Assembly (NCBI RefSeq): GCF_001460935.1
Contig: NZ_LN906597.1
Coordinates: 792,768-856,767, forward strand
DNA length: 64,000 nt
Reading direction: 5' to 3'
DNA from: Candidatus Ichthyocystis hellenicum
GTDB lineage: Bacteria > Pseudomonadota > Gammaproteobacteria > Burkholderiales > 2013Ark19i
Shown here: positions 19,836 to 38,424 of the stretch, piece by piece
Numbering within the stretch: the first letter of the stretch is position 1
Layout: each line of letters opens with the position of its first letter
The notes under the pieces: model-generated
What the model saw: only the letters and a program-made list of their open reading frames with translations
Databases searched by the model: none
Told to the model about the DNA's origin: nothing
Program-made: the position numbers and the translations under genes

Positions 19836-21378
<1,543 letters not shown>

Positions 21379-21457
21379 GAGAAAACACCCTTTACTCCGT
21401 TCACAACTATAAGTTGTCTATCTTTGACTGTATCTGATGGTGTTGAGGATGATTTTA

Positions 21458-21534
21458 GGGTCTATAGCTCAGCTGGTCAGAGCACACGCTTGATAAGCGT
21501 GGGGTCGTTGGTTCAAGTCCAACTAGACCCACCA
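21458..21534 (+). tRNA. tRNA-Ile (GAT)
   Basis: A 77-base tRNA with the CCA tail encoded lies in the 16S-23S spacer. The acceptor stem GGGTCTA pairs with TAGACCC. The anticodon loop TTGATAA gives anticodon GAT. Most proteobacterial rrn spacers of this type carry tRNA-Ala (TGC) next; I see none in 21535-21724, which contains only A/G-rich sequence. Confidence 0.96.
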
Positions 21535-21724
21535 CATGTTTTTCCTCGCTTCAGCGGTATACGAGGTTTTGTGGTTTTCTGGTACGGTTGTGGTGATGAT
21601 TTTTTTGAAGCAAGTGGAGTAAAGAGATCTGTAAAAAAGAGGAAGAGAAGTAGGTAGAAAAGCAAGGATAATTAAAAAAACAAAGAGGAAAAAAAGCAAA
21701 GCACAGAGAGATACTAAAGCTATA

Positions 21725-24617
<2,893 letters not shown>

Positions 24618-24682
24618 TATAGAATTAGTGTCTAGCTCTGTGTGAATCTACTTCTCTTTTTTGATCTCTTTTTGATTTTTAT

Positions 24683-24798
24683 AGTCTCGTGGCCATAGCT
24701 CGGTGGAACCACCCCTTCCCATCCCGAACAGGACCGTGAAATGCCGACGCGCCGATGATAGTTACTTAACTGTAGCGAAAGTAGGTTGCTGCGAGACT
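24683..24798 (+). rRNA. rrf: 5S ribosomal RNA
   Basis: A 116-base 5S rRNA is closed by AGTCTCG (24683-24689) pairing with CGAGACT (24792-24798). It contains the CCCATCCCGAACAGG and GCGCCGATGATAGT segments typical of 5S. Its 3' part is repeated downstream in the second 127-bp duplication. Confidence 0.94.
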
Positions 24799-29562: not shown

Positions 29563-31290
29563 CTTAAGCCACGTGCTTACATGCTTGTTGTCTTGGTCGC
29601 TGATCTCTATCTTGCGACTTCCAAACTTAGCTGGAGATGGCAACCAGGTAATCGTTCCAGTCCTTAGTAATCCCTGCCTGACAAAATGTACCGTTGATTT
29701 TTGCCCTACCTTTACACGAGATGTGATTTCGGAAAATGATTGTTTCGTACACTCCAGTTCATCTATTGCAATGATTTTGTCGCCACTACTAATGCCAGCT
29801 GTTATTGCGCTGCTGTTATCAATGACCATGTCTACTATTAGATTTTGGTCTGAAGTAAAGGTTGTTCCCCAGTAAGGTATGGTTTCTTCAGTTTGATCTG
29901 CTTGGTATTTGATTCCCATCCTATTGAAAATAGTCTCCCATTCTGCATAGTTATGGTGGTGAATAAGGTTACTAACTACGGAATAGACGTCAATTCCAGT
30001 GATATTGTGGATAAAGCTATACCAACTGTTTTCTGATATTTTACAACAGTTGTCAGCGTGATGGTGATTCCACAACTCCCTTAGTACATTGTCCAAACTG
30101 TAACGACCGTTCGATTCCAAGATTAAAAAACAGTCGGTATACAGTGCAATTAACTCTCCCTTATCATAATAGCTAACTTGGGAATTAAGCCTGTTTTCTG
30201 TTGGACGATAATACTTTGTCCATGCATCAAAGCTTGATTCAGATGCTGTCTGTTGATTGTATCCCTCATAAGATTCAACTGATTGAATCTTATTTGCTAT
30301 GGATTGAAGATAATGCTTAATAGGCAATAATCCTGATCTAACTAATACTAAATCTCCATAGTATGATGTCAGTCCCTCAAATAACCACAATAGAGAGGTG
30401 TATTGCTCTCTATCTAAGTCATATGTCATAAATTCTTTGGGTTTGAAAAATTTTATCCACCACGTGTGGAAGTGTTCGTGGCTACACAATGATAAAAAGT
30501 CAATGTAGCTACTACTATCTGATCTATCAACAAGAGTGTTTTGTAAGCTTCTATGGGGGCAAATTAAAGATGTACTTCGACGGTGTTCTAGTCCCCCCAT
30601 TAGCTTGTCTGAGGCAATTACTAGAAATTGATACTGGTTAACTATCTTTGGTAACGAACCAAAGATATCTTTTTGGGTCGTAATTATTTTGGATAGATCC
30701 CTAATTAATGGTTCCGGGTTTATCCGTGTAGTGGGGGTAATAGACATGTGATAGATTTTTTCATCTACTTCCCAAGAGAATCTGCTTAGATTTCCCATTA
30801 ACATGGGGTGATCAATAAGTTCATCATAATTATCTGCAATCCACGTGTTTTCTTCTTGGTGAGCAGTCATGGCTGTTGCACATTCCCAGTTATCGTTGTG
30901 TTTTTTCCATCTAACGATATGAGTACAATTTTCTTGCCGCAATACCCGGACAAAAGCAGCTGGTCCAGATATGTGCGCAAATTGTTCTTCTAATATGCAC
31001 GTACGAACCGACCAATCCCAAGCATAAATAGTGTATGAAAATACTATTTTATCTTTTGGACAGCAGCTAACGTACCAACTGTTCTTATTTACAAATCGTA
31101 ATGTTTTCTCTTCACCATTGACTGTTACATGTTTGTTAACAATATGTCTAGAATAGTCTCTTATCATGTATGAACCGGGAGCCCATACAGGAAGACTGAA
31201 AGCAGCAATTTTCTCGACAGCATTGCATGTTACTGAAATGCAGATATAATTTTTCTTAGCTTCTGAAAACGAAACTGTGTATTCAACCAT
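29557..31290 (-). CDS. M61 family metallopeptidase (glycyl aminopeptidase) with PDZ domain
   Basis: The 577-residue protein matches the M61 peptidases common in Proteobacteria. An N-terminal beta domain (VWAPGSYMIRDYSRHI) is followed by the zinc motif HEHFH at 271-275, with the third ligand Glu in WLFEGLTSYYGDL, and a C-terminal PDZ domain (from about 480). No signal peptide is obvious, as in many family members. It starts at the iscX stop (one-base overlap), so it is likely transcribed with the isc operon; a functional link is not established. Confidence 0.88.
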   Translation of the reverse strand: MVEYTVSFSEAKKNYICISVTCNAVEKIAAFSLPVWAPGSYMIRDYSRHIVNKHVTVNGEEKTLRFVNKNSWYVSCCPKDKIVFSYTIYAWDWSVRTCILEEQFAHISGPAAFVRVLRQENCTHIVRWKKHNDNWECATAMTAHQEENTWIADNYDELIDHPMLMGNLSRFSWEVDEKIYHMSITPTTRINPEPLIRDLSKIITTQKDIFGSLPKIVNQYQFLVIASDKLMGGLEHRRSTSLICPHRSLQNTLVDRSDSSSYIDFLSLCSHEHFHTWWIKFFKPKEFMTYDLDREQYTSLLWLFEGLTSYYGDLVLVRSGLLPIKHYLQSIANKIQSVESYEGYNQQTASESSFDAWTKYYRPTENRLNSQVSYYDKGELIALYTDCFLILESNGRYSLDNVLRELWNHHHADNCCKISENSWYSFIHNITGIDVYSVVSNLIHHHNYAEWETIFNRMGIKYQADQTEETIPYWGTTFTSDQNLIVDMVIDNSSAITAGISSGDKIIAIDELECTKQSFSEITSRVKVGQKSTVHFVRQGLLRTGTITWLPSPAKFGSRKIEISDQDNKHVSTWLKL

Positions 31291-31484
31291 TATGAGATCT
31301 CATCTAGCCATGCCATTTGTATAACCTCCAAAATTTTTTCGTTGCAATCTCTACCTTCAGGATCAAAGCCATCTAATTCTAAAACCATTTTCCTAAGCCT
31401 GGTAAAACTTAGGCTTAGTGGATCAATATCAGGGTAATGTTTGTGTAAAGAAATGGCTATGTCTTCAATATCTGTCCAATTCAT
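31290..31484 (-). CDS. iscX: Iron-sulfur assembly protein IscX
   Basis: This 64-residue acidic protein matches IscX (YfhJ), a modulator of IscS that binds iron weakly. It starts MNWTDIEDIAISLHKHYPDIDP and ends with a conserved helical segment containing MAWLDE. It is the last gene of the isc operon, 6 bases after fdx, in the canonical position. Confidence 0.93.
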   Translation of the reverse strand: MNWTDIEDIAISLHKHYPDIDPLSLSFTRLRKMVLELDGFDPEGRDCNEKILEVIQMAWLDEIS

Positions 31485-31490
31485 AATATA

Positions 31491-31832
31491 TTAGTCCTTG
31501 TTCTCCTTAGCATGGTTGATAGTATACCTAGGAATTTCAACAATAATGTTCTTATCGCTTATCATTGCTTGACATGATAAGCGTGAATCCATATCAGTTC
31601 CCCAAGCCCTATCCAATAGGTCATCTTCAATTTCACTCGGTGGATTAAGGCTATTTATTCCCTCCCGAACCCATACATGGCAAGTTGTGCATGCGCAGCA
31701 TTTTTCGCAAGCATGTTCTATTTCTATGTTATTTTTTAACAAAGCGTCACATATCGATATGCCAGGATCAATTTCAAAACACTCGCCTTCCGGGCAAAGA
31801 TCCTCATGAGGTAATATAATTACTCGCGGCAT
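31491..31832 (-). CDS. fdx: Isc-type [2Fe-2S] ferredoxin
   Basis: This ferredoxin donates electrons to IscU/IscS during cluster assembly. The 113-residue protein has the cluster ligands Cys42, Cys48 and Cys51 in HACEKCCACTTCHVW and Cys87 in RLSCQA. An additional Cys at 45/46 is a variation on the usual CEKSCACTTC. The operon position between hscA and iscX is standard. Confidence 0.95.
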   Translation of the reverse strand: MPRVIILPHEDLCPEGECFEIDPGISICDALLKNNIEIEHACEKCCACTTCHVWVREGINSLNPPSEIEDDLLDRAWGTDMDSRLSCQAMISDKNIIVEIPRYTINHAKENKD

Positions 31833-31863
31833 TGTCTATCCTTGTTCGTATCCATGTTTGTGC

Positions 31864-33663
31864 TTATGTTTCCTTGGCTATAATGTTCAGTTGTTCAACT
31901 TCTTTGGATAATGTGTTTATGTCTATTTCTTCTAAGTCATTTGTATCCAGATAGTTCTTTAATAAATTGCTTTGTGCAGTAATGCGATCAACCAGATCTT
32001 TATTTTTTTCAGTTTTGCTTATGTTTTGCAGGAATCTATCAACGGATTGAATCAAGATTTGTGCTTCCATTTTTTTTTCAATCTTGTGTTTGATAATAAT
32101 ATCTTTTTCAATTATCTCAGATGAGATCTTATCTTCACCTGCAGATTCCAGCTCATTAGTCCAGACAGTTTCAAGATGTTCTACATGATCAGAATCTATT
32201 GACTCAGCAGTAACTGACAATAATCCATCAACATCGATTTGAAAGATTACCCTTATACGTATAGATCCAGCAATTTTAGGAGGTAACCCATTCAAATTAA
32301 ATGAACCTATCGTGTGACAGTCTTCTGCACGATTACGTTCACCTTGCAGAACCTTTAAGGTAAATCCCGTCTGGCCATCCTTAAAGGTAGTAAAAATTTC
32401 TTCTTTAGTTGTTGGTAAGGGAGTATGTTTGGGTACAATTACCTCCATAAGTCCACCCATGACTTCAATCCCGAGAGAAAGAGGTGTGATGTCTAAAAGA
32501 AGAGATTTTTTAGTTTCAGAAGATGCTAGTTGATGAGCCTGTGAAGCAGCTCCTATGGCAACTACGCAGTTAGGATTAACGTCATTCAAAGGATTTTTCC
32601 CAAATAAGTTCTTGAGCTCTTTGTAAACAGCCGGCATCATAGTTGCGCCGCCAACTAGTACGATCCCATCTAGATCATCGTATGGTACTCCACTTTGGCG
32701 TACCACCGTATTTGATATTGAAATTGTTTTTTGAAGAAGATGGTTAGTAGCTTCCTCGAACTGTTGTCTGCTTATTTTGCCAATTATATTATCTCCAGAT
32801 GGTGTTAGTAGGGTATATTCTGATTGTGTTTCTGAGGATAACTTTTCCTTTATGGATCGAACCGCTAGACGATAATGAATCCATTCTTTTTGATCTATTT
32901 GCTTATGATTACGACACAGAATGTCGAATAAGGTGCGATCAAAATTGTCGCCACCCAAGGTGGGGTTTCCTCCTGTGGCTATGACCTCGAATATATTGTC
33001 AGAAAGATGGAGGAGTGATACGTCAAATGTTCCTCCGCCTAGATCATAGATCATAAAGTAGCCATTTTTCTTTTTTTCTAAACCATATGCTATGGCTGCT
33101 GCAGTTGGTTCATTAATTAGCCTTAGTACTGGCAATCCAGCGTGATGAGCTGCCAAACGAGTTGCTTGCCTTTGAGTGTTATTAAAGTGAGCTGGTACCG
33201 TTATTACAGCTCCCCGTACAGGTTTGTTTAGATGAAACTCGGCTTTTTTCTTTAGTGTTAGAAGAATGTCAGCTGCTATGTCAATGGCCGATTTCTTGCC
33301 CGCAGAGGTATTGAACGAAGCGTAAGCTCCAAATTGCTCTTCATTGTAAATAGATTTAATTTCTTGCTTTTGGTCACTACTTAACGGTCCAGTATAGCGT
33401 TTGGTTGAGAGAAAAACTCTTTTTTCCGGGTCAGAGATAAATTTTAATGCTTCATGGCCTACAAATGTTTCTTGATCTGTATAACAAACGGCAGAAGGGA
33501 GAAGAAGGTTTTTTGCATCGCTGGCGATTACATAAACTCCCCCTGAAGTGCTATAGGTAGCAACTAAAGAATTAGTGGTTCCAAGGTCTATTCCTACGAC
33601 AGCATACCCGTCAGGGTATGCTAACGAGTCTTCAGGTTCGCTGATTGATATGAGTGATGTCAT
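31864..33663 (-). CDS. hscA: Hsp70-type chaperone HscA
   Basis: HscA drives cluster transfer from IscU using ATP, with HscB as co-chaperone. The 599-residue protein has the nucleotide-binding GIDLGTTNS near residue 24, the GGGTFDVS phosphate loop and the VLVGGATMMP motif, then a substrate-binding beta domain and a helical lid. It is about 20 residues shorter than E. coli HscA, mostly at the C-terminus. Confidence 0.95.
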   Translation of the reverse strand: MTSLISISEPEDSLAYPDGYAVVGIDLGTTNSLVATYSTSGGVYVIASDAKNLLLPSAVCYTDQETFVGHEALKFISDPEKRVFLSTKRYTGPLSSDQKQEIKSIYNEEQFGAYASFNTSAGKKSAIDIAADILLTLKKKAEFHLNKPVRGAVITVPAHFNNTQRQATRLAAHHAGLPVLRLINEPTAAAIAYGLEKKKNGYFMIYDLGGGTFDVSLLHLSDNIFEVIATGGNPTLGGDNFDRTLFDILCRNHKQIDQKEWIHYRLAVRSIKEKLSSETQSEYTLLTPSGDNIIGKISRQQFEEATNHLLQKTISISNTVVRQSGVPYDDLDGIVLVGGATMMPAVYKELKNLFGKNPLNDVNPNCVVAIGAASQAHQLASSETKKSLLLDITPLSLGIEVMGGLMEVIVPKHTPLPTTKEEIFTTFKDGQTGFTLKVLQGERNRAEDCHTIGSFNLNGLPPKIAGSIRIRVIFQIDVDGLLSVTAESIDSDHVEHLETVWTNELESAGEDKISSEIIEKDIIIKHKIEKKMEAQILIQSVDRFLQNISKTEKNKDLVDRITAQSNLLKNYLDTNDLEEIDINTLSKEVEQLNIIAKET

Positions 33664-33710
33664 TTTCTAAGGTCTTTGGGGTAGCATATTGAGATTCTAA
33701 CTTATTGGGT

Positions 33711-34199
33711 TTACTGATCAAGTAATTCCGATAACCTTTTTTGAGTCTTGAATAAGAACGACCATTTCATGAAGTTATGGCGTGCGTTTTGCCAATTTTT
33801 TGATTTTATGTCTTCGAACAGTGATCTACGAAGATCAAGCTCTTCTTGGTCAATTTCCCTAGATACTTCTTGTTGCTGAGCAACATCACCATGAAATATT
33901 TTTTCTTGCTGTTCTATGTGTTTTTCCAAGAAATCAACAGGCACTTGGAGCTCATCTGCTGCAGATGGTAAGGCATCATTTATTGATAATATGTAGTGTA
34001 CTCTCAAAAAAGGGTCACTAATAACACGATAAGCTTCATTTATATGCGAAGAATACTCTCCCCTTTTATCATCAGAACAAGCACTGTCAGGATGGTGTTC
34101 TAGCTGTAGATTATGCCATGCTTTACGTAGATCCTTTATATCAATTTCCGGAGATTCCGGTACCCCAAAAAGCTCAAAGTAATTTTCATCGTTAGACAT
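33711..34199 (-). CDS. hscB: J-domain co-chaperone HscB
   Basis: HscB recruits IscU to HscA and stimulates its ATPase. With the ATG at 34199 the protein is 162 residues: an N-terminal J domain with the HPD motif at 36-38 and a C-terminal three-helix IscU-binding domain. This start is chosen because it gives the NYFELFGVP beginning and has GGTGAG upstream; the longer frame reads through the end of iscA. It overlaps iscA by 8 bases. Confidence 0.9.
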   Translation of the reverse strand: MSNDENYFELFGVPESPEIDIKDLRKAWHNLQLEHHPDSACSDDKRGEYSSHINEAYRVISDPFLRVHYILSINDALPSAADELQVPVDFLEKHIEQQEKIFHGDVAQQQEVSREIDQEELDLRRSLFEDIKSKNWQNARHNFMKWSFLFKTQKRLSELLDQ

Positions 34200-34527
34200 T
34201 GAAGGACTCACCACACCCACAGTAGGATTTGGCATTGGGATTATTAAATTTAAAGCCTTCGTTCAAACCCTCACGAACAAAGTCAATTTCACTCCCATTC
34301 AGGTAGTAAATGCTCTTTGCCTGAACAAATATAGCGACATTTCCTATCATCACCTCAGTATCGTCATCACGTTTTTGATCTACATACTCGATCTTGTAAG
34401 CATACCCGGAGCAACCCGTTTCCTTAACCCCAAAACGAACACCTATGCCACGACCACGCTTCTCCATGGAGGCCCGAATGTGATTCAAAGCACGATCGGT
34501 TAACGATATATCAACCAAATTAGACAT
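34192..34527 (-). CDS. iscA: Iron-sulfur cluster carrier IscA
   Basis: IscA is an A-type carrier that passes clusters to target proteins. The 111-residue protein keeps the three ligand cysteines: Cys39 in TGCSGYAY and Cys103/Cys105 in CGCGESF. It lies two bases after iscU and overlaps hscB. Confidence 0.95.
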   Translation of the reverse strand: MSNLVDISLTDRALNHIRASMEKRGRGIGVRFGVKETGCSGYAYKIEYVDQKRDDDTEVMIGNVAIFVQAKSIYYLNGSEIDFVREGLNEGFKFNNPNAKSYCGCGESFNV

Positions 34528-34529
34528 AA

Positions 34530-34940
34530 CTAGTCATTTACCACTTTGCTTGACTGCTTGGAGCTATTTTTTTCCTCATAGTTAGCAACAGCCGCACGAA
34601 TGGCGGCCTCCGCCAGAATGGAACAGTGAATCTTGACTGGCGGCAGGGATAGCTCTTCAGCAATTGACAAATTCTTTATTTTTAATGCTTCGCTTACTGT
34701 CTTACCTTTTATCATTTCTGTTACTAATGAAGACGATGCTATGGCAGAACCACAACCAAAGGTTAGGAATTTAGCATCTTCAATGACGTCTCCTGTGCCA
34801 ACCTTGATTTGCAGCTTCATAACATCACCACAGGATGGAGCACCTACTATTCCGGTCCCCACATCTTTAGTATTTTTGTCAAACGATCCAACATTACGCG
34901 GATTTTCATAGTGATCAACGACTTTACTGGAGTACGGCAT
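34530..34940 (-). CDS. iscU: Iron-sulfur scaffold IscU
   Basis: IscU is the scaffold on which [2Fe-2S] clusters are built. The 136-residue protein has Cys37, Asp39, Cys63, His105 and Cys106, the full set of active residues at E. coli-like positions, and the LPPVKIHC segment bound by HscA. The 93-base gap to iscS contains a small AGTGTT/AACACT hairpin. Confidence 0.96.
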   Translation of the reverse strand: MPYSSKVVDHYENPRNVGSFDKNTKDVGTGIVGAPSCGDVMKLQIKVGTGDVIEDAKFLTFGCGSAIASSSLVTEMIKGKTVSEALKIKNLSIAEELSLPPVKIHCSILAEAAIRAAVANYEEKNSSKQSSKVVND

Positions 34941-35033
34941 TTATATATACCTCCATATACTCAAAAACACCTCGTAACACATTCTCCAAGCGTCAACGAA
35001 GGGTGACAAATAACCAGTGTTCCTAAAATAACA

Positions 35034-36245
35034 CTAATGAGACGAATCCCAGTCAATAGAGTTAATATCAATACCATTTTTGTACATTTCCCACAACGGG
35101 GAGATTGACCTTAGGCGCTCAACAGTTTTTTCTATAGCCGATATAGTATAGTCAACTTCTTCTTCCGTTGTGAAACGACCCGTGGTTATACGTATCGATG
35201 AATGTGCTAAATCATCTCCTACTCCTAAAGCCCGCAAAACATAAGAAGGCTCCAAAGAAGATGAGGTACAGGCGGATCCAGATGATACCGCAATGTTTTT
35301 TATCCCCATCATGAGCGACTCCCCCTCTACGTAGCCGAAGCTTGCGTTTACGTTGTGGGGGATCCTTTTATCGAGGTCACCATTAATAAATACTCCCTCC
35401 ATGTTCAAGAAGGCAGTAATCATCTTTTTTTGAAATTTTTGGAGACGCTCTCTTTCATTGGGTGATTCCTGAACTGCTATGCTTGCAGCTTCTCCTATTC
35501 CAACTATTTGTGAGACCGGCAAAGTTCCAGATCTCAAACCACGTTCATGGCCACCGCCGTGCATTTGAGGTACTAGACGTACCCTGGGTTCGCGTCGAAC
35601 ATAGAGAACACCAATTCCCTTGGGGCCATAAATTTTGTGTCCAGAAAATGACATGAGGTCAACTTGTAGCTCAGCAAGATTGATCGGAACCCTACCTAAT
35701 GCTTGCACGGCATCGACATGAAAAATTATGTTGCGCTCTCTACAAATTTTTCCTATTTCAGCAATATCCTGGATAACCCCTATCTCATTGTTTACCATCA
35801 TGATTGAAACAAGAGAGGTATCTGGCCTAATAGAGCTTTTGAATAGCTCAAGATCAATGACTCCATTTTTCTCTGGTTTTATATACGTTGCCTTAAATCC
35901 ACCTTTTTCTAGGGCCCGTACGCTATCTAGAACCGCTTTATGTTCAGTTTGGCAAGTTAGAATATGATCTCCACGGCGTTTATAAAATTCTGCCGCCCCT
36001 TTTATTGCTAAGTTATTGGACTCGGTAGCCCCGGATGTCCATATGATTTCACGATGGTCTGCACCGATAGACTTAGCAAATTGCTCACGAGCTTCTTCCA
36101 CAGCAGACTCAGCTACCCACCCATACGAGTGAGATTTACTAGCAGCGTTTCCAAACTTCTCAGTTAGGAATGGCAACATCTTCTCTACAACCCTAGGGTC
36201 AATAGGGGTAGTAGCAGAGTAATCCATGTAAATTGGTAACTTCAT
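35034..36245 (-). CDS. iscS: Cysteine desulfurase IscS
   Basis: IscS takes sulfur from cysteine for iron-sulfur clusters, thiolated tRNA and other cofactors. In the 403-residue PLP enzyme the PLP Lys lies in [12 protein letters not shown] near residue 206 and the mobile-loop Cys in [21 protein letters not shown] near 328. The N-terminus [19 protein letters not shown] is standard. A 244-base spacer with a strong hairpin separates it from iscR. Confidence 0.96.
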
Positions 36246-36452
36246 TGCGGCCCAACTTCCACTATGCGTAATAAGACGGAGCCTATGTTACCCCAAAAAG
36301 GTCAAATTCCCAATACTAAATAGTTCTACTAATTAACAAACCAACGTTACCTGTACAGAGGATACTTCGTTTTAGAGGGTTAGGGCACGGGATGCTTAAC
36401 GTATGTACCTCTGAAACTTGATACCGTTTCTCTGTGCGAAGTGTACCGCTAC

Positions 36453-36481
36453 CCTGTAGCAAATAATTTCTTTGCTACAGG
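36453..36481 (-). promoter_or_regulatory. Strong hairpin in the iscR-iscS spacer
   Basis: CCTGTAGCAAA (36453-36463) and TTTGCTACAGG (36471-36481) form a perfect 11-bp stem with a 7-base loop, 8 bases after the iscR stop on the minus strand. No T-tract follows in the direction of transcription, so it is more likely an mRNA processing or 3'-stability element than a terminator. In E. coli this junction is also where iscR mRNA is separated from iscSUA mRNA. Confidence 0.6.
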
Positions 36482-36489
36482 ATAGAGTG

Positions 36490-36981
36490 TTAGGTTGTTA
36501 CATACTGCTTGATGCCATTTCGATATATCAAAACATTAACGTGTCTACACGGATCATCAGTTGCACTTTCGCTAACTCCTTTTTGTTTTTCAACCAGATC
36601 TCGTAATGTTACAGATCTAAGATAATCCAAAATGATATTGTTGAGATTATTCCATAGATCTTGTGTTAGACACTTTTTCTTTTCGGTTAAATTTTCAAAA
36701 GATTCTGCCATTGTTGAACCTATAGGTTCATCTACTGCAGTTACTATGTCAGCAACAGTAATCTTATCCATTTGCCGTGCGATTCTGTACCCACCTCCAG
36801 GTCCTCGTATGCTCTCAACTAATCCATGTTTGCGCAGCTTTCCGAATAGTTGCTCGAGGTAGGATAAAGATATTCTTTGTCGCTCGCTGATGCCTGCTAG
36901 TGTGACTGGACGATCTAATTCTCTCAACGCCAAATCAATCATTGCGGTAACTGCAAAGCGTCCTTTAGTTGTTAATCTCAT
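36490..36981 (-). CDS. iscR: IscR-family regulator lacking iron-sulfur ligands
   Basis: IscR is an Rrf2-family winged-helix regulator that normally senses iron-sulfur status through a [2Fe-2S] cluster. The 163-residue protein starts MRLTTKGRFAVTAM at the ATG at 36981. Its DNA-binding part is well conserved (ISERQRISLSYLEQLF, including Glu43). Numbering matches E. coli exactly. Of the ligands Cys92, Cys98, Cys104 and His107, only Cys104 remains; the others are Ala92, Leu98 and Gln107. It is therefore expected to be permanently cluster-free and to act like apo-IscR. It heads the isc operon. Confidence 0.93.
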   Translation of the reverse strand: MRLTTKGRFAVTAMIDLALRELDRPVTLAGISERQRISLSYLEQLFGKLRKHGLVESIRGPGGGYRIARQMDKITVADIVTAVDEPIGSTMAESFENLTEKKKCLTQDLWNNLNNIILDYLRSVTLRDLVEKQKGVSESATDDPCRHVNVLIYRNGIKQYVTT

Positions 36982-37035
36982 GTGTCTTAGTCCTTCAATA
37001 AAGCGCCAAGACACGCAGCGGAGGGGAGTAGTTAC

Positions 37036-37064
37036 ACTTTATTCGTTAGTAATAATTTAGTCAA
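37036..37064 (-). promoter_or_regulatory. Putative promoter of iscR/isc operon
   Basis: Read on the minus strand: TTGACT (37059-37064), a 17-base spacer and TAAAGT (37036-37041), about 55 bases before the iscR ATG. Only half of a type 1 IscR site (GACTAAA) can be seen, so I do not claim an operator. Confidence 0.45.
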
Positions 37065-37722
37065 ATAATACTTATACTAAAAGGAGGTTTTTTAAAAAAA
37101 TATTATTTTATTTTTTAATATGTCATTGATATAAAATGTATTTTTTTTATTAAAAAAAATAATTAACAATGAAAAAAGAATGGTTTTTTATGATTTATTT
37201 AACATCCCAAAAAAGGGATTATTGCTTTTAGTATTCAAATACTTACTAAAAAACACAAAAACAACAATTAACCACTTTATACATGAGGTTTTATTAATAC
37301 CATACCAGATGATATGGAATATATTTTTATCGATATTAATCAAGGACTAATGATTTTTTATAGCGTAATTTATATCAATAATAATTACGAAGGGAAAAGG
37401 GTTTTTTAAGTAAAATTTAACCTAAAATAGCTAAAAACACTTTTTTATTACTAAATAAGTTTTTTGAACTAAATCCATTCAAGCAAAATTGGTATTACTA
37501 TTTTTTCCTGCTTTATTAATTTTAAGATTGATGTATTTTTTTATATTTGTCATTAAAGTAATTACAAAATTAATGTTATTTCATTTCTTACTCTTAGGAT
37601 AATCAATGTTGGTAAAGTGGATATTGTGCTTTTATTAATATTTTTGTACTAGGAAAAAAGGCTTCTAATTCTTTATCTGAAATAAAAAATTAGAAACCTT
37701 ACTATTTGTAATGGAAATACAA
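37065..37722. other. AT-rich gene-free spacer
   Basis: About 660 bases between the iscR promoter and the end of dnaQ. Base composition is strongly A/T, with long runs of A or T and no ORF, tRNA or obvious repeat. It may be decayed DNA or a long regulatory spacer; nothing more can be read from it. Confidence 0.7.
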
Positions 37723-38424
37723 TTAATTTTTATCTGCTAAATCCATCCAGATACAAATGTTATTTTCTTTTTTCATGTTTTTTAGATAGTCTTGATGTTT
37801 AAGCTGATCTTCAGGTGATGTTCTTATTAATATTGATTGTCTATTTTTTGAAATTTCACCTTTACTGTTATTGGTAATAGGTGAATGAAGGTCAAAATTT
37901 TCCTGACCGCGTGTCATGATTAAATAAACTTGGGCTAATAATTCTGCGTCAATTAGTGCTCCGTGTTTCTTACTGCGTATGCTGTTATCAATTTGGTAGC
38001 GCTCGGCTAGTGCATCAAGTGAGTTGCGTTTTCCTGGGTATAGACTGCGTGAAATTGTTAGCGTGTCAATTATGCGCCTGCAGTGGTAAGTTAGCGTTTC
38101 TTTATGTTGGCGAATTAATATATCGTTTAAGAATCCTACGTCGAAGGGAGCATTGTGAATTACTAAATCTGACTCCATGATGAAATTAATGAAATCATCA
38201 ATTATGTCTTCTTCCAGAGGTTTATCTTTTAAAAATTCTAAGGTTATTCCGTGGACGGCTTGTGCTCCTGGGTCTATTTCACGCTTGGGGTTCAAGTAAG
38301 AGTGAAAATGTTTTCCAGTTAATTGACGGTTAATAATTTCTACGCCGGCAATTTCAATAATTCTGTGCTGGCGGTGATCTATGCCAGTTGTTTCTGTGTC
38401 CAGTACAATAATACGTTGAGACAT
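37723..38424 (-). CDS. dnaQ: DNA polymerase III epsilon subunit
   Basis: The proofreading 3'-5' exonuclease of the replicative polymerase. The 233-residue protein has Exo I LDTETTG (Asp9, Glu11), Exo II HNAPFDVGFL and Exo III with HGALIDAELLAQVYL. The rnhA-dnaQ adjacency, six bases apart, is the conserved proteobacterial pair. Confidence 0.94.
   Translation of the reverse strand: MSQRIIVLDTETTGIDHRQHRIIEIAGVEIINRQLTGKHFHSYLNPKREIDPGAQAVHGITLEFLKDKPLEEDIIDDFINFIMESDLVIHNAPFDVGFLNDILIRQHKETLTYHCRRIIDTLTISRSLYPGKRNSLDALAERYQIDNSIRSKKHGALIDAELLAQVYLIMTRGQENFDLHSPITNNSKGEISKNRQSILIRTSPEDQLKHQDYLKNMKKENNICIWMDLADKN

Follow-up and report, generated by a model that had tools for sequence, protein, structure and literature searches.

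The iscR gene and its operon

The stretch that we analyzed (the window) covers 64,000 nt of the genome of Candidatus Ichthyocystis hellenicum, which is 2.15 Mb long and assembled as a single contig. Our family sample comprises two genomes, this one and that of its sister, the latter being a draft. Within the window, we find an Rrf2/IscR-type regulator gene and the genes of the ISC machinery arranged as follows:

36490..36981, minus strand: iscR coding sequence, 163 aa, Rrf2/IscR-type regulator (translation, profile searches, alignment)
36661..36708, minus strand: former [2Fe-2S] ligand segment of IscR, residues 92-107 (alignment)
36493..36540, minus strand: the C-terminal 16 residues of IscR (148-163), VNVLIYRNGIKQYVTT (low confidence)
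31290..36245, minus strand: iscS, iscU, iscA, hscB, hscA, fdx and iscX, the complete ISC machinery (NCBIfam)

Translation of the regulator gene gives 163 aa with the N-terminus MRLTTKGRFAVTAM, and alignment with E. coli IscR (HMMER, PDB 4hf0/4hf1) shows no gaps until about residue 135-138, the point to which the gap-free E. coli numbering used in the first-pass annotation can be followed. The protein passes the cut-offs of the Rrf2 superfamily, with 132.8 bits for PF02082 (cut-off 30) and 140.7 bits for TIGR00738 (cut-off 73.3), and matches the IscR equivalog model TIGR02010 over 134 of 135 model positions at 189.2 bits, below the curated cut-off of 207.55. All of the DNA-contact residues given for IscR in the available text of PMC11475020, i.e., S40, Y41, E43, Q44 and R59, are present. 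An AlphaFold monomer aligns with apo and DNA-bound E. coli IscR at Z 18.2-18.5 and rmsd 1.4-2.1 over 115-127 residues. We class the gene as an iscR ortholog. It shares its fold and DNA-binding residues with E. coli IscR and the engineered cluster-free forms of that protein (4hf0/4hf1/4hf2; Cys-to-Ala at 92/98/104), and its E43 and its leading place in the isc operon with E. coli IscR.

This position, as first gene of an iscSUA-hscBA-fdx operon, is part of a gene order (iscR-iscS-iscU-iscA-hscB-hscA-fdx-iscX) that NCBIfam assignments show to be complete, as the first-pass annotation had it, and that is identical in the sister. The beginning of the listed hscB reading frame and the end of iscA share 44 nt (34192-34235), and HscB shows the lowest window-sister identity (52%) among the 13 proteins compared. 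Elsewhere in the window, a complete 16S-tRNA-Ile-23S-5S rRNA operon lies at 19837-24797 on the plus strand. The likely start of iscR is the ATG at 36981; an in-frame GTG at 37014 is ruled out as the start, since the sister leader has an in-frame TAA. A terminator-like hairpin at 37700-37658, directly after dnaQ, fits with iscR beginning its own transcript.

Only one Rrf2 protein in the window genome exceeds the cut-off, with a second match, over 38 model positions, falling below it, and on this ground we reject a second, ligand-bearing IscR elsewhere in this genome; the sister genome likewise gives one match to the window IscR. Fur was found in both genomes. The presence of a suf operon had been left to be checked by the first-pass annotation, and our search for SUFBD found none in either family genome (0/2; control 14/14 positive), so that SUF is rejected as a target of apo-IscR here.

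Loss of the cluster ligands and of the type-1 operator

At the E. coli positions 92, 98, 104 and 107, which form the (Cys)3(His)1 ligand set, the window IscR has Ala (codon 36708-36706), Leu (36690-36688), Cys (36672-36670) and Gln (36663-36661), with codon positions counted by hand. The first-pass reading of these four residues is thus confirmed by translation and alignment. The sister IscR has Thr, Ile, Cys and Gln at the same positions. The loss is therefore common to both family genomes, with replacement residues at 92 and 98 that differ, and a sequencing error at 36680-36740, which had been named as a possible source of the changes, is rejected on that ground.

Our alignment of 220 IscR loci, taken from within and close to the order, consisted of the window, the sister, 80 loci from named genomes (whose titles are mostly betaproteobacterial) and 138 loci from other genomes of the order, the two sources not being de-duplicated against each other. 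The 138 genomes were read from 386 others with a match, some of the remainder having weak matches only, and were a non-random choice: 28 were best matches, 40 were chosen for weaker matches, and 70 came from listed rows, with genomes having only a very weak match (e.g., family f42, E about 1e-10) falling outside the sample. Glu43 and the Cys-Cys-Cys-His set are intact in 215 of the 218 other loci, the exceptions being two with Phe107 and one cut by a contig end (L143). The two Phe107 loci (L147 and L149, genomes G334 and G246, family f20) keep Cys92, Cys98 and Cys104, and their best upstream matches to a type-1 box score 19/25 and 18/25, respectively.

A class-wide sample of 139 genomes, 93 of which matched at E<=1e-22, was read at the best match of the 92 besides the window, and here 89 IscRs had intact ligands, one had His107Lys, one had a gap at 98, and one, from genome G483 (L328; the same gene at L338:14848-15324), had Ser/Ala/Arg/Gln. 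This last IscR-like protein resembles the window IscR in being ligand-less while keeping E43 and in having no type-1 box upstream, but differs in that C104 is lost too and that, over the 15.5 kb read, its gene is not next to any isc gene, the neighbors being recJ-, prfB- and lysS-like ORFs (identified by eye).

An IscR encoded in an isc operon rarely lacks its ligands, yet there is a precedent in the single-Cys IscR of Rhodobacteraceae (R. sphaeroides, PMC4618611, available text; D. shibae, 7zpn), where the three-Cys motif is naturally absent, as in the window, and where iscR also heads an Fe-S assembly operon. The Rhodobacteraceae system, as described in that text, has an alphaproteobacterial isc-suf operon, a non-canonical C142 and an Iron-Rhodo-box regulon, whereas the window has C104 and an ISC-only operon; by taxonomy, the two losses would be independent. 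Compared with the engineered E. coli forms, the window IscR has lost its ligands naturally, H107 among them.

In E. coli and P. aeruginosa, type-1 boxes mediate the repression of isc by holo-IscR, type-2 sites are bound by apo-IscR, and E43 prevents apo-IscR from binding at type-1 sites (PMC3899308, partial text). For each iscR, we matched the type-1 consensus to the upstream sequence (up to 250 nt), using 100 mononucleotide shuffles of that sequence as background (1000 each for the window and the sister). A type-1 box was present at p<=0.02 in 209 of 215 relatives, and the score was 20-24 of 25 in 196 of the 215. Upstream of iscR in the window and the sister, the best matches are at chance level (16/25, p 0.84, and 15/25, p 1.0, respectively), both under the shuffle mean of 16.4. 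Whole-genome searches allowing up to 3 mismatches found no type-1 site in either family genome (reversed-pattern control 0 in the window genome and 1 in the sister), and 1-4 sites per genome in six relatives with intact ligands (control 0).

Unlike in E. coli, no type-1 operator was found in the window genome at up to 3 mismatches, and no suf operon that IscR could activate was found. Within the order, the window is an exception in its protein and in its DNA, and these losses fit each other. Outside the order, a missing box alone is no proof of a missing sensor, since class-wide 74 of 92 loci reach p<=0.02 for a box and ligands are intact in 17 of the 18 above that threshold; the AT-rich iscR promoter could also conceal a diverged type-1 box.

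Constraint on IscR and conserved elements around the gene

Window and sister IscR are 86% identical, which makes IscR the best conserved of 13 neighboring proteins (52-82% for the other 12). Residues 1-82, the DNA-binding half that the first-pass annotation had described as highly conserved, are identical at 80 of 82 positions (pS 0.54, pN 0.011), compared with 18 of 25 for residues 83-107, a difference from which we conclude that the DNA-binding function has been kept while the former sensor segment has evolved more quickly. With a pS of 0.63, iscR as a whole diverges less at synonymous sites than any of the other 12 genes, and part of the conservation of iscR may not be at the protein level. 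Taken together, the substitution pattern argues that the window iscR is not decaying and that its DNA-binding half, including E43, is under strong purifying selection.

The C-terminal tail shows a separate pattern, with residues 148-163 identical at all 16 positions (pS 0.87, pN 0) next to a linker (133-147) that is identical at 3 of 15. In the AlphaFold monomer, pLDDT is under 50 over residues 143-162, the tail has no secondary structure, and the old ligand segment is also of low confidence, leaving docking of the tail into the old cluster pocket without support. A conserved tail reading EHRAALEFPTSTLQPI... or close to it, with a possible counterpart of the window tail (..PTSTLQPI..), occurs in 16 relatives whose IscRs carry the cluster ligands (L003, L004, L008, L010, L011, L014-L017, L025, L037, L095, L096, L099, L161 and L165).

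The region upstream of iscR is AT-rich, with a mean window-sister identity of 57%, and two blocks stand out in it, with 29 of 30 columns identical compared with at most 23 in 40 shuffles. These blocks and the other elements that we noted around the gene are:

37036..37072, minus strand: conserved 37-bp block with a sigma-70-like promoter, TTGACT-17-TAAAGT (1 mismatch to the sister)
37300..37317, minus strand: conserved imperfect dyad CCATATCATCTGGTATGG, with the core TTCCATATCATCTGGTATG present exactly once per genome, upstream of iscR
37162..37187, minus strand: weak type-2-like IscR match (20/26, p 0.029)
36982..37014, minus strand: hairpin in the 5' leader, running up to the ATG, with AAGGA in the loop region (z -2.6)
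36449..36485, minus strand: strong hairpin just 3' of the iscR stop, no T-run (z -5.9 for 36420-36500)
36285..36313, minus strand: possible separate iscS promoter, TTGGGA-17-TAACAT (alignment by eye)

The call of the iscR promoter rests on conservation, because a promoter scan of 36200-37750 reported 5 promoter-like sites compared with a shuffle mean of 7.6. Conservation extends to the spacer between the two hexamers of the 37-bp block, suggesting an operator that overlaps the promoter. Exact copies of the block number one per family genome, at the iscR promoter, and together with one 3-mismatch copy in the window genome this leads us to reject a role of the block as the operator of a whole regulon. 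The left part of the block agrees with a type-1 half-site at 14 of 16 positions (p about 0.065 taken alone) and its right arm does not fit; as a type-1 remnant, the left half is suggestive only. The dyad, about 320 nt upstream of iscR, is almost invariant between the two family genomes.

The type-2-like match, scored with a type-2 consensus, lies about 100 nt upstream of the -35 element. In the sister, the best match (20/26, p 0.036) occupies the corresponding place with a register shift of one base, and 15 of 215 relatives also have a match at p<=0.1; with a match that is weak and out of register by one base, we do not claim a type-2 site that replaces the type-1 box.

The stem of the leader hairpin folds from the 33 nt before the ATG in both window and sister, and the AAGGA in its loop is ribosome-binding-like. 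The hairpin after the iscR stop is also present in the sister, with a shorter loop, and Rfam at gathering thresholds reports nothing at either hairpin. The possible iscS promoter, whose sister counterpart is TTGGGT-17-TATCAT, was not reported by our promoter scan. The gap between iscR and iscS measures 244 nt in the window and 152 nt in the sister; an iscS start, recognized by its N-terminal motif, lies within 3 kb in 157 of the 218 other loci, at a distance within 194 nt in 109 of these and of at least 1,150 nt in 48. The long, structured gap of the window recalls the uncoupling of iscR from iscSUA in E. coli by RyhB and a stem-loop (PMC8593673, available text).

A probable apo-locked IscR and its alternatives

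We consider it probable that the window encodes a naturally apo-locked IscR, whose holo-feedback loop would have been lost in the protein as well as in the DNA. The protein would stay cluster-free and bind type-2-like or new sites, with its output set by the amount of IscR, independently of cluster occupancy. It would probably act at or near its own promoter, where the 37-bp block over the -35 and -10 elements is nearly invariant, and the hairpin after iscR, with the possible iscS promoter, would let the expression of iscSUA be set separately. Engineered IscR with C92A/C98A/C104A still regulates and recognizes type-2 motifs; in Yersinia, such an apo-locked form leaves isc derepressed and is costly, with slow growth and lower membrane potential (PMC4055776, partial text); by conjecture, the leader and intergenic hairpins could partly compensate for such a cost. 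A single substitution, C92A or H107A, was enough to abolish repression of isc in P. aeruginosa, according to the available text of PMC3899308.

These results bear on two statements of the first-pass annotation. That classical feedback through holo-IscR has been lost is now better supported than by the residues alone, because the type-1 operator is at chance level upstream of iscR and was not found in the genome at up to 3 mismatches, the ligand loss is shared with the sister, and SUF was not found; "not possible", which had been said of this feedback, is too strong for cluster binding itself, because the single-Cys IscR of R. sphaeroides binds a cluster (PMC4618611, partial text). Of the two outcomes offered, a constitutive operon or an apo-type switch, the second fits the strong constraint on the DNA-binding half better than would a useless regulator of a constitutive operon.

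That binding in R. sphaeroides is the model for non-canonical cluster sensing, in which a cluster would be bridged by Cys104 of the two protomers, with acidic or other side chains as possible further ligands. Cys104 is the only Cys in the sister IscR and is kept in both family genomes, and R. sphaeroides IscR, with its single C-terminal Cys, C142, turns brown on reconstitution, loses its absorption in C142A and represses when cluster-bound (PMC4618611, available text). However, C142 lies outside the canonical ligand positions, and a single C-terminal Cys kept in the lineage, as in Rhodobacteraceae, is not seen here, since Cys145 of the window is Ser in the sister and the shared Cys is C104. 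Moreover, C104 sits within a wholly identical stretch, KCLTQDLWNNL, so that its conservation need not mean ligation, and the loss of the canonical type-1 operator also speaks against cluster sensing via C104. We regard this sensing, the leading alternative, as unlikely.

A replaced sensor, with a new effector or partner acting via the changed 83-107 segment or the invariant tail, is in our judgment improbable. CymR is a cluster-free Rrf2 protein that answers to cysteine through CysK, and a comparable arrangement would be consistent with the full identity of the tail beside its diverged linker, with the conserved promoter block and dyad upstream of iscR, and with the Rrf2 fold common to the window IscR and the CymR of Firmicutes, whose structures (2y75, 3t8r) align with the window model at Z 15.5-15.8. 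Against this, the tail has a possible counterpart in 16 ligand-bearing relatives, is thus not tied to ligand loss and does not alone qualify as a replacement sensor; its pLDDT in the monomer model is low; and the CymR equivalog cut-off is missed (NF047409, 106.7 bits, cut-off 195). Decay of the regulator in a reduced genome, with iscR being lost and the isc genes constitutive, would accommodate the lost operator and the faster-changing sensor segment, but is very improbable given that IscR is the best conserved of the 13 neighboring proteins, that pN is 0.011 over its DNA-binding half and that the promoter block hardly varies.

We therefore return to the apo-locked IscR, which on the sequence evidence would represent a real, shared and rare loss of an Fe-S sensor under strong selection, matched by loss of the holo-specific operator. 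In kind, it belongs with apo-IscR and the IscR of Rhodobacteraceae; what is new, among the literature matches listed, is the double loss in a lineage where SUF was not found, and the titles and abstract openings of those matches include no natural ligand-less IscR outside Rhodobacteraceae. A broader scenario, which we put forward as possible though doubtful, is that the whole family dismantled the IscR loop, both ligands and type-1 operators, and rebuilt ISC control on a permanently cluster-free IscR that uses a new operator and may receive a new input through the invariant tail, in genomes where no SUF was found.

IscR is the textbook sensor of Fe-S homeostasis, and its cluster-free role is known mostly from engineered mutants (PMC4055776 and PMC3899308, partial texts). 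An iscR annotation does not in itself mean that the product senses clusters, and a lineage with a fixed cluster-free IscR, a lost matching operator and a nearly unchanged DNA-binding half would be a natural test of how apo-IscR is used when there is no SUF to switch on.
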